Shown piece after piece: positions 1,683 through 4,899 of a DNA stretch of 39,586 nucleotides. The notes beneath the pieces are model-generated. The model was given only the letters and a program-made list of their open reading frames with translations. It was not told where the DNA came from and did no database searches. Positions within the stretch are counted from its first letter, which is position 1. Each line of letters starts with the position of its first letter. The position numbers and the translations under genes were made by a program. The stretch is from a bacterium. Its GTDB lineage: Bacteria; Vulcanimicrobiota; Vulcanimicrobiia; Eremiobacterales; Eremiobacteraceae. The DNA lies in contig CADDZI010000020.1 in NCBI GenBank assembly GCA_902812405.1, positions 1 to 39,586 of the forward strand. Reading direction: 5' to 3'.

Positions 1683-2771
1683 ATGGCAGCCAATGTAAGC
1701 GACCTTCTCGGCCTGCGGATGGACGAGTTGATGCGCGTGACCATCGAGCGCGGCGCATCCGATCTCCACATGAGCGTGGGCCTGCCGCCCATGCTTCGCA
1801 TCGACGGCCGGCTGACGCCCACGGAATTTCCGAAGCTGACGCCGGACGATACAAAACGTCTCATTTACAGCATCCTCACCGACCAGCAAAAGGAACGCTT
1901 CGAGAAGAACCTTGAGCTGGACTTCTCGCACGGCCTGAAAGGGTTCGGGCGCTTCCGCATCAACGCGTTCCGCCAACGAGGGGTCATCGGCGCCGTCTTT
2001 CGGGCCATCCCGTCCTCGGTGCCGGCCTTGGGCAGCCTGAACCTGCCGCCCGTCATGGGCGACCTGACGATGCGCCCGCACGGCCTCATTCTGGTGACGG
2101 GGCCCACCGGCTCCGGTAAGTCCACCGCCTTGGCGTCGATGATCGACATCATCAACTCGACCATGGCGCGGCACATCATCACGATGGAAGACCCGATCGA
2201 GTATCTGCACTTCCACAAGATGTCGATCGTCAACCAGCGGGAGATCGGCCACGATTCGTACAGCTTCGCCAACGCCCTGCGGGCCGCGCTGCGCGAGGAC
2301 CCGGACGTCGTCCTGGTCGGCGAAATGCGCGACATGGACACGATCGCGACGACCCTCACGATCGCCGAAACTGGGCACTTGGTCTTCGCGACGCTGCACA
2401 CCTCGGATGCGGCGCAGAGCATCGACCGGATCATCGACGTCTTCCCGGCACACCAGCAGCAGCAGATTCGGGTCCAGCTTGCGTCGGTCATCGAGGCCAT
2501 CATCTGCCTGCGCCTGCTGCCGCACGCGTCGGGCGTGGGCCGCGTACCCGCCGCCGAGGTCATGATCGCGACGCCCGCCATCCGCAACCTCATTCGCGAG
2601 AACAAGACGCACCAGATCCACAACGCCATCGTCACCAGCCGCGGCATGCACATGCAGACCTTCGACATGTCCCTGCGCGATCTGGTACGCAAGCACATGA
2701 TCACGGAAGACGAAGCCCTGGCGGCGTCGATGCATCCGGAAGAGCTGCGCAAGCTCATCGAAGGCACGTAA
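1683..2771 (+). CDS. pilT: Type IV pilus retraction ATPase PilT
   Basis: Hexameric cytoplasmic ATPase that powers pilus retraction. The N-terminal region has the family's GASDLHMSVGLPPMLRIDG signature. Walker A GPTGSGKST is at about residues 139-147, and the Walker B region REDPDVVLVGEMRD at about 204-216. The His box TLHTSDAAQSIDRIIDVFP follows. The C-terminal AIRNLIRENKTHQ segment is typical of PilT rather than PilB, as is the length of 362 aa. An in-frame TAG directly precedes ATG 1683, so the start cannot be further upstream. ATG 1719 (MDELM) is a possible alternative that aligns well with other PilT N-termini. It is followed by a micro-ORF, pilC and a sigma factor on the same strand. No pilB lies next to it. 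Confidence 0.97.
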   Translation: MAANVSDLLGLRMDELMRVTIERGASDLHMSVGLPPMLRIDGRLTPTEFPKLTPDDTKRLIYSILTDQQKERFEKNLELDFSHGLKGFGRFRINAFRQRGVIGAVFRAIPSSVPALGSLNLPPVMGDLTMRPHGLILVTGPTGSGKSTALASMIDIINSTMARHIITMEDPIEYLHFHKMSIVNQREIGHDSYSFANALRAALREDPDVVLVGEMRDMDTIATTLTIAETGHLVFATLHTSDAAQSIDRIIDVFPAHQQQQIRVQLASVIEAIICLRLLPHASGVGRVPAAEVMIATPAIRNLIRENKTHQIHNAIVTSRGMHMQTFDMSLRDLVRKHMITEDEALAASMHPEELRKLIEGT

Positions 2772-2792
2772 GCAAGGAAGGGGACCACCACC

Positions 2793-2864
2793 ATGCAGAT
2801 GTCATTGCTCTGGCTGCTCATTCTCCTCGTCATCTTGGTCGTCGGCCAAGCGACAAAGCTGTAA
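2793..2864 (+). CDS. 23-residue single-pass membrane micro-protein between pilT and pilC
   Basis: A short open frame fills the gap between pilT and pilC. It starts at ATG 2793, 21 bases after the pilT stop, and ends at TAA 2862-2864. A purine-rich ribosome site AAGGAAGGGG (2774-2783) lies upstream at roughly normal spacing. The peptide begins MQMSLLWLLILLVILVVG and ends with a short polar tail QATKL, so almost the whole chain is one transmembrane helix. A second in-frame ATG is codon 3. It resembles other tiny membrane-subunit proteins (KdpF-like in style) but I recognise no family. Position suggests a partner of PilC or PilT in the inner membrane; that is inference. It is too small for most gene callers. 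Confidence 0.55.
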   Translation: MQMSLLWLLILLVILVVGQATKL

Positions 2865-2869
2865 CCCCC

Positions 2870-2888
2870 GCCGGGCTGCGAGCCCGGC
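2870..2888 (+). other. GC-rich hairpin between the micro-protein and pilC
   Basis: An 8 bp perfect stem, GCCGGGCT (2870-2877) with AGCCCGGC (2881-2888) and loop GCG. It starts six bases after the micro-protein stop and 23 bases before the pilC start. No T-run follows, so it is not a classic terminator. It could attenuate read-through or protect the upstream mRNA, tuning PilT against PilC. Confidence 0.5.
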
Positions 2889-2911: not shown

Positions 2912-4150
2912 ATGCCCAGTTTCGCATACCAGGCAAAAGATGCCAGCGGCAAGTCCGTCAACGGCGTCATCGAGGCGGAGAACGAACGCGTCCTGCGTGC
3001 CAAGCTCCGCGAGATGAACTACTACGTCACCGGAATCACCCAGAAGCAGACGAGTGGCCTGAACGCCGACGTCTCGGCCGTCTTCGGGGGTGTGCTGGGA
3101 AAGATCAAGGGGGTCAGCGAGCAGGCGCTGGTCGTCTTTGCACGCCAGTTCGCAACGATGATCAACGCCGGCCTGGCGATGGTGCGCTGCCTCGACGTCC
3201 TGGGGATCCAAACCGAAGACGCACAGCTGAAGCCGGTCATCGTCCAGGTGCGGCGCGAGGTGGAGGGCGGTTCGACGCTCGCCAACGCGCTGGCCAAATT
3301 CCCCAAAGTCTTCTCGCCGCTGTTCGTCAACATGGTCCGGGCGGGCGAGTTGGGCGGTATCTTGGACGAGGTGCTCAACCGGCTGGCCGGCTTCCTCGAG
3401 AAGGACTACAACCTGAAGAAGAAGGTCAAGTCGGCGATGACCTACCCGATGGTCATCCTCGTCATGGCCGTCCTCATCGTGCTCTTCCTCGTGACCTTCA
3501 TTCTGCCGACCTTCGTCAGCCTGTTCGTCGGCATGAACATGAAACTGCCGCTGCCGACCAAGATCCTCATCGGGTTCACGAACGGTGCGCGCAATCCGGC
3601 CGTCATCGGCATCACCCTCGTCGTGCTCATCGTCAGCTTTATTCTCTTCAAGCGCTGGACGGCGACCCAGACCGGGCGCTATCAGTACGATAAGTTCAAA
3701 CTCAAGCTGCCCGTCTTTGGCATGCTCATCCGCAAGGTTGCGATCTCGCGCTTTTGCCGGACGCTGGGCGCCCTGCTCCAATCCGGCGTGCCGATCATGC
3801 AGGCCCTGGAAATCGTCGGCAAGGCCTCGGGCAACGAGGTTGTGGCGGAGACGGTCGGCAAGGTGCGGGAGTCGGTGCGCGAGGGCGAATCGATTGCCGT
3901 GCCCCTCAACCTGTCGGGGCTCTTCCCGCCGCTTGTCACGCAGATGGTCGCGGTCGGCGAGGAAACCGGGAATCTGGACGGCATGCTCCAGAAGATTGCC
4001 GACTTCTACGACGTCGAGGTCGAGTACATGCTGGCCTCGCTGACGTCGCTGCTGGAGCCCATCCTGATCCTTGCGATGGGGTTCGTCGTCGGCTTCATCG
4101 TCATCTCGGTCTTCCTGCCGCTGTACCAGATCATCGGCAACATCAAGTAA
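2912..4150 (+). CDS. pilC: Type IV pilus inner-membrane platform protein PilC
   Basis: Polytopic inner-membrane platform that couples the pilus ATPases to pilin insertion and extraction. The N-terminus FAYQAKDASGKSVNGVIEAE is diagnostic. Two tandem GspF/PilC domains follow, one from about residue 75 (FARQFATMINAGLAMVRCLD) and one from about 275 (FCRTLGALLQSGVPIMQAL). Strong membrane segments lie near 175-205, 225-245 and at the C-terminus (ILILAMGFVVGFIVISVFLP). Length, 412 aa, is typical. The start ATG 2912 has GAGGGA about ten bases upstream. It lies downstream of pilT and a micro-protein and five bases before a sigma-factor gene. Confidence 0.97.
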   Translation: MPSFAYQAKDASGKSVNGVIEAENERVLRAKLREMNYYVTGITQKQTSGLNADVSAVFGGVLGKIKGVSEQALVVFARQFATMINAGLAMVRCLDVLGIQTEDAQLKPVIVQVRREVEGGSTLANALAKFPKVFSPLFVNMVRAGELGGILDEVLNRLAGFLEKDYNLKKKVKSAMTYPMVILVMAVLIVLFLVTFILPTFVSLFVGMNMKLPLPTKILIGFTNGARNPAVIGITLVVLIVSFILFKRWTATQTGRYQYDKFKLKLPVFGMLIRKVAISRFCRTLGALLQSGVPIMQALEIVGKASGNEVVAETVGKVRESVREGESIAVPLNLSGLFPPLVTQMVAVGEETGNLDGMLQKIADFYDVEVEYMLASLTSLLEPILILAMGFVVGFIVISVFLPLYQIIGNIK

Positions 4151-4155
4151 GGCTC

Positions 4156-4899
4156 ATGGCGACCGCCGTTGCGCCGCCCGGCGGAGAAAGCGAATTCGAG
4201 GCCTACGCGCGCACGCGCAGCCTCGAGCTCCGTGACCGGCTGATCCTGGAGCACGTGCCCCTGGTCAAGTCGATCGCGGCGCACTGCGCGCAACGCCGGG
4301 ACCAGCGAGACGACCTGGAACAGGTCGGCTACGTGGGCTTGATCAAAGCCGTCGAGCGCTACGACCCGACCCTGGGCGTGCCGTTTGAGGCCTACGCGCG
4401 CACGATCATCACGGGTGAGATCTTCCACTACTTGAGGGACCTGGCTCCGGCGCTGCGGATGCCGCGCTGGTACCGCACGCTCAACCGCCGTCTGCACGAA
4501 TCCCACGACCGCTTGCTGGCCAGCCTGGGCCGTGAACCCAGCACCGAGGAGCTGGCCGCCGACATGAACATCACGCTGGACGGTGTCCGGGAGATCCTTC
4601 GCTTGCGGGAGTCGTACAATCTGTTGTCGCTTTCCGAGCGCGGCCCCGAGCACGACACGCCGCGCTGGTCTGCCATCCGCAGCCTGCGGCACCAATCGTT
4701 TCGCCTGCCGGTGGAGGATCGCATCGCCCTGGATAGGGCCGTGGAGGGCTTGGCCGAGTTCGAACGTCGGGTTGTCGAACTGTTCTTCTATCGGGACCTA
4801 ACCCAGACCGAGATTGCGCGGCGGCTGGGATTTTCGCAGAAACACATCTCCCGCACCCTGGCCAGCACGCTTCGCAAACTCAAAGCCGAGATCCGTTGA
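4156..4899 (+). CDS. RNA polymerase sigma factor, SigB/SigF/FliA-like (group 3)
   Basis: Alternative sigma factor of 247 aa. Region 2 is seen as DLEQVGYVGLIKAVERYDP and GVPFEAYARTIITGEIFHYLRD, as in SigB/SigF/SigG proteins. Region 3 follows (GREPSTEELAADMNI), then region 4 with the helix-turn-helix FYRDLTQTEIARRLGFSQKHISRTL. Start ATG 4156 is five bases after the pilC stop, with GTAAGG just upstream, so it is almost certainly co-transcribed with pilC. Its stop overlaps the TTG start of the first glycosyltransferase. Placement suggests it directs pilus or surface genes, but its target promoters are unknown. I see no adjacent anti-sigma gene. Confidence 0.9.
   Translation: MATAVAPPGGESEFEAYARTRSLELRDRLILEHVPLVKSIAAHCAQRRDQRDDLEQVGYVGLIKAVERYDPTLGVPFEAYARTIITGEIFHYLRDLAPALRMPRWYRTLNRRLHESHDRLLASLGREPSTEELAADMNITLDGVREILRLRESYNLLSLSERGPEHDTPRWSAIRSLRHQSFRLPVEDRIALDRAVEGLAEFERRVVELFFYRDLTQTEIARRLGFSQKHISRTLASTLRKLKAEIR

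Follow-up and report, generated by a model that had tools for sequence, protein, structure and literature searches.

The locus described here raises two questions: whether a short reading frame in the gap between two genes of a type IV pilus is a gene, and with which part of the pilus its product would work. The frame lies in a stretch of 39,586 nucleotides, hereafter the window, which belongs to a 2.32 Mb draft genome. The nearest relatives of this genome are Candidatus Eremiobacterota, a group filed within Vulcanimicrobiota in the NCBI taxonomy. A preliminary description of the DNA had claimed a small membrane protein gene between pilT and pilC, preceded by a strong purine-rich ribosome site. 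Its coordinates, start, stop and peptide proved exact (2793-2864). The ribosome site was found at 2774-2783 as AAGGAAGGGG, whose end lies 9 nt from the ATG, and in Pfam the flanking products are indeed a T2SSE ATPase and a T2SSF protein (Table 1). The frame, called the microgene below, is located within a pilT-pilC gap of 140 nt.

Table 1. Features at and around the microgene in the window
Feature	Position	Strand	Basis
pilT, retraction-type ATPase, 362 aa, upstream neighbour	1683..2771	+	Pfam T2SSE
Ribosome-binding site of the microgene, purine-rich, AAGGAAGGGG	2774..2783	+	Read from sequence
Microgene, 23-residue single-helix membrane protein, MQMSLLWLLILLVILVVGQATKL	2793..2864	+	ATG to TAA; homologs; selection
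GC-rich perfect 8-bp hairpin in the microgene-pilC spacer	2870..2888	+	Sequence
pilC, platform gene, 412 aa, partner ortholog tracked by the microgene	2912..4150	+	Pfam T2SSF, E 3e-63; co-location; tree
Sigma-70 family gene, downstream neighbour of pilC	4156..4899	+	Pfam

A conserved gene below the size limit of annotation

The peptide consists of a Trp-rich end, some 15 hydrophobic residues and a short polar tail. This tail usually ends in Lys or another polar residue plus an aliphatic one, and no room is left for a domain. The consensus of related loci is approximately M-S-x-x-W-W-W-L-x-P-L-A-I-x-x-V-G-x-L-T-K-I/L, and family members are 19-28 residues long. A frame of such length is by itself common, since 36% of 40,000 shuffles of the gap contained an ORF of at least 19 codons. 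Its hydrophobicity is not: the 17-residue Kyte-Doolittle mean of the peptide, 2.75, was reached in none of the 40,000 shuffles, and a mean of at least 1.6 in 0.08% of them. The window has 102 ATG-initiated ORFs of 19-40 codons, and this is the sole one so hydrophobic. The claim of an almost purely hydrophobic chain holds.

A profile of the peptide was searched against 149 genomes of the phylum, and 37 of them gave matches at E ≤2.2e-6. Weak matches at the correct position were obtained from two more (G007 and G010), and in G008 the member was picked up at its locus. In the fetched loci, which held about 31,000 ORFs, members scored at least 12 bits and the best noise 6.2. When PilC "of this type" is defined by at least 57% identity, 41 genomes have it (G019 included), and the microgene lies directly upstream of the orthologous pilC on the same strand in 40 of these 41, which span 14 families, versus 0 of the remaining 108 genomes of the phylum, some of which have many PilC paralogs. 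The exception is G131, in which PilC (60%) is encoded on a 3.2 kb contig and no such frame occurs in the 368 bases upstream. The cultured Vulcanimicrobium alpinus (PMC9758169) seems, provisionally, to be of the lineage that is without the microgene. Homologous frames of 19-28 codons occupy the pilT-pilC gaps of relatives, and the lack of any conserved frame, named in the preliminary description as the outcome that would count against a gene, was not observed. Purine-rich sites resembling Shine-Dalgarno (SD) sequences are found upstream of the homologous ORFs, too.

The frame is conserved at the level of amino acids. In the window's own family (f1, 14 sequences), pS was 0.69 and pN 0.22, giving a dN/dS of about 0.13, while the two shifted frames of the same DNA, used as the f1 control, gave ratios of 0.66 and 3.9. 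The observed conservatism of amino acids was reached by column permutation in 0 of 500 trials for f1 and 0 of 200 for all 39 sequences. Conservation is highest at the second codon position and lowest at the third. One locus (L022 of G023) carries two tandem copies of the microgene upstream of pilC (L022:2120-2281). These copies differ at 14 of 17.7 synonymous versus 6 of 51.3 non-synonymous sites, so that both are kept as proteins. The comparison of synonymous with non-synonymous change that had been proposed as a check therefore returned purifying selection.

The microgene is a real gene. A chance ORF, for which only the commonness of frames of this length speaks, is ruled out by retention in 40 of 41 genomes, by strong purifying selection and by the comparison of hydrophobicity with shuffles, and its residual probability is negligible. 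The earlier claim of a genuine overlooked small gene is strongly supported by a frame and a position that are both conserved, and by purifying selection. The lower limit of bacterial gene callers is usually 30 codons, and it was because every member is shorter than this that the gene was missed, as had been supposed.

No family for the peptide is present in Pfam or NCBIfam, and no chain among solved structures matches its profile. Among solved sequences, those found to be related to PilC were limited to an entry for the type IV pilus machine of Myxococcus (3jc8/3jc9) and to short fragments of PilC/GspF. Several known kinds of small protein were considered and set aside. TatA and TatE models gave weak matches, one member per model (E 0.015 and 0.093), and no amphipathic helix follows the membrane segment. 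A type IV pilin or pseudopilin was rejected, as the peptide shows no motif for prepilin peptidase (a G before F, with E at +5) and is too short for a globular domain. A type I toxin, for which an antisense RNA and a mobile or multi-copy distribution would be expected, is unlikely, given a single copy in each genome and its fixed place in the operon.

PilC as the probable partner

In the window, an acyltransferase gene and not pilB lies upstream of pilT. In other families, where examined, the order is pilB-pilT-microgene-pilC, then a sigma-70 gene. The latter is directly 3′ of pilC in three families (window 4156-4899, L009:5274-6059 and L011:5309-5998), and it might exert control over pilus genes.

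The evidence points to PilC rather than PilT as the protein that the microgene tracks. In three genomes (G007, G008 and G010; loci L013, L011 and L014, respectively), the order is pilT-pilC′-microgene-pilC, and the microgene still adjoins the orthologous pilC. The microgene is single, next to the ortholog, even in genomes whose PilC paralogs number up to ten, and at 22 loci where PilC is a paralog or divergent no homolog was found. Two genomes of 96-97% completeness (G134 and G145) are without orthologous PilC, orthologous PilT and the microgene, all three. It is because of this gene order, the single copy amid paralogs and the joint absence that the microgene is tied to PilC. In the PilC tree, the 38 micro-associated PilCs and 18 others form one group (SH-aLRT 98%), and this group excludes the divergent PilCs of f2 and f3, sister families of the window's own; this tree is a quick search with some long branches, and its inner details are not relied on. 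The preliminary description had proposed a subunit or regulator of a PilT-PilC complex. A role in the pilus, which we infer from these associations, is plausible, and the gene order in the three genomes favours PilC over a PilT-PilC pair.

Several observations were made on the pilC genes themselves. The additional pilC′ in L011 (2573-3793) and its counterparts in L013 and L014, located between pilT and the microgene-pilC pair, is divergent (43-49% identity), and the tandem arrangement possibly reflects a hetero-oligomeric platform. In the larger sister families f2 and f3 of the class (e.g., G118 and L164), the microgene is absent and the pilT-pilC pair is a different, far more divergent one (35-48% identity), which suggests that the pilus core was replaced or diverged rapidly. 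PilC residues Ala89, Met90 and Met185 (window numbering) are invariant in all 38 micro-associated PilCs, and position 185, in the first membrane segment, is Leu in PilCs of the same clade without an adjacent microgene (L030 and L032). As markers of the group, these three residues are confounded by ancestry and are a lead only.

A probable relative of the microprotein exists in Calescibacteriota, to judge from its sequence. The peptide MGWWWL(V/L)xLAI(I/L)LVGLSYPDxF was found in six of seven genomes (loci L179-L182, L195 and L196; E 2.6e-5 to 2.4e-3). It is close to the peptides of L011 and L013 (WWWLL-LA-TLVGL-Y) and is under purifying selection (pS 0.62, pN 0.07). Its gene is located upstream of a gene for a TFIIB-type zinc-ribbon protein, away from pilC. 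The PilCs of four Calescibacteriota genomes group with the micro-associated PilCs in the tree, and a PilT ortholog is present in all seven. The correspondence with PilC is incomplete here: in G175 a PilC of the orthologous type is present and the microgene absent, and in G173 and G174 the microgene is present but no PilC of that type was detected.

Searches in other phyla covered about 440 genomes altogether. The phylum of the Armatimonadota query yielded no homolog in 201 genomes at E up to 0.01, and that of the Actinomycetota query none in 198, both results being read with no positive control inside the phylum; the same or a near-identical profile does detect members in Eremiobacterota and Calescibacteriota. 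The lone match among 43 further genomes lies inside a 501-residue frame and was taken as chance, and three additional genomes gave none.

Proposed role and competing explanations

The reading that we consider rather likely is that the microprotein is a single-pass inner-membrane accessory subunit of the PilC platform in one type IV pilus system. With fewer than about 60 residues and essentially one hydrophobic helix, it has the form of small single-helix accessory proteins; it is under the purifying selection expected of an accessory subunit, and it is found beside the partner gene and conserved in lineages that bear this partner. The microprotein would be made just ahead of PilC from the same transcript. 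It would insert as one short helix, with the Trp-rich end, the hydrophobic stretch and then G-x-L-T-K-I/L, its C-terminus probably in the cytoplasm, and would pack against the membrane helices of PilC. There its effect could be to stabilise the PilC oligomer, or else to adjust the channel and the way in which this is coupled to the PilB and PilT motors. The mode of action would be like that of CydX for cytochrome bd or KdpF for the Kdp pump. For PulF, a PilC homolog, modelling and crosslinking gave a channel-bearing trimer, in which membrane segments one and three line the channel and the second is peripheral (PMC10790770). For L104, AlphaFold2 was applied to a read-through fusion in which the intergenic linker joins the microprotein to PilC. 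The model, based on an alignment of 13 fused and 36 PilC-only rows, showed a helix at residues 3-21 with pLDDT of about 52-56 and, as a monomer, no confident docking. A narrower proposal is put forward more tentatively, as a possibility: the helix of 19-28 residues would be an obligate, hitherto unrecognised subunit of the type IV pilus platform that binds PilC and gates or stabilises its central channel. Within Eremiobacterota it would be an ancestral companion of this PilC type, one that Calescibacteriota also have, and it would have escaped notice because gene callers pass over it.

The accessory-subunit reading has a precedent in CydX, a short single-helix protein encoded in the operon of its partner, often unannotated, whose presence is coupled to one sequence type of CydA (PMC4325964). 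However, the relative in Calescibacteriota is unlinked to pilC, the three mismatched genomes of that phylum do not fit, the PilC of G131 is without a microgene, albeit on a short contig, and operon position alone could stem from translational coupling. If coupling were all, the frame would be a relay whose peptide is a harmless by-product. The short spacers to pilC in many members would agree with such a relay, but a relay needs no particular amino acids, while the codon analysis shows the amino-acid sequence to be under selection. In addition, L022 has two copies of the gene, and in Calescibacteriota it has no link to pilC. All this makes a pure relay very improbable. The main cis-acting rival is instead a leader or arrest peptide of the TnaC or SecM kind, which would set pilC translation and be conserved for its role in the ribosome tunnel and not in the membrane. 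The microgene immediately precedes pilC and is read in the same direction, and in Eremiobacterota the stop codon follows the invariant Trp at a constant distance, as expected of a stalling peptide of TnaC size (TnaC has 24 residues). This rival is weakened by the spacers to pilC, which range from 13 to 239 nt; in 14 of 39 loci they do not exceed 20 nt, too little for a hairpin that would sequester the SD sequence. The hairpin of the window likewise would find no space for an equivalent in many relatives with spacers of 13-20 nt, and the SD sequence of pilC is not consistently paired; neither downstream structure nor spacing is thus conserved. Moreover, the Calescibacteriota peptides have another C-terminus (SYPDxF) and are encoded away from pilC, the tandem copies of L022 persist under constraint, and the whole helix length is conserved. 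An arrest peptide is accordingly judged quite improbable.

A small membrane protein could also act mainly on PilT, PilB, a pilin or PilM/N/O, with its adjacency to pilC a matter of operon organisation only. The usual unit pilB-pilT-microgene-pilC is compatible with this, as are the Calescibacteriota, which all have the PilT ortholog and include the two genomes with a microgene and no detected orthologous PilC. Against it, the microgene adjoins the orthologous pilC even where another pilC separates it from pilT (L011, L013 and L014), and genomes with many other T2SSE ATPases have one microgene, beside this pilC. A target other than PilC is therefore unlikely, yet of all the rivals it keeps the largest share.

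Comparison with known systems and significance

Single-helix accessory proteins are a known kind; for one linked to the platform of a type IV pilus, no earlier example was found. The literature search returned no description of a PilC-linked microprotein, with subscription journals outside its scope. To our knowledge, there is no type IV pilus component of this size. The known inner-membrane parts, namely PilC/GspF, PilM-PilN-PilO and pilins, are encoded in the same cluster; unlike them, the microprotein is not a pilin, having no prepilin cleavage motif, and has no matching solved chain. CydX differs from it in having 37 residues in E. coli and in being an oxidase subunit whose binding is established, whereas binding of the microprotein to PilC is something that we infer; no sequence relation between the two was found (no Pfam match). 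KdpF and AcrZ are also single hydrophobic helices thought to pack on a larger membrane machine (for AcrZ, PMC7267776), but they serve a potassium pump and a drug efflux pump, respectively, whereas the microprotein would serve a platform protein of type IV pili. TnaC and SecM share with the microgene a short conserved peptide upstream of a gene, and TnaC also the fixed spacing from Trp to stop; in contrast to them, the microgene has no conserved downstream RNA structure or spacing, encodes a hydrophobic helix and has the unlinked relative in Calescibacteriota.

A one-helix protein genetically tied to one type of PilC would offer a small, mutable handle on how PilC transfers the work of the motors to the pilus. 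If the proposed role is true, even the much-studied core of the type IV pilus can have parts that have been widely missed in under-studied phyla.
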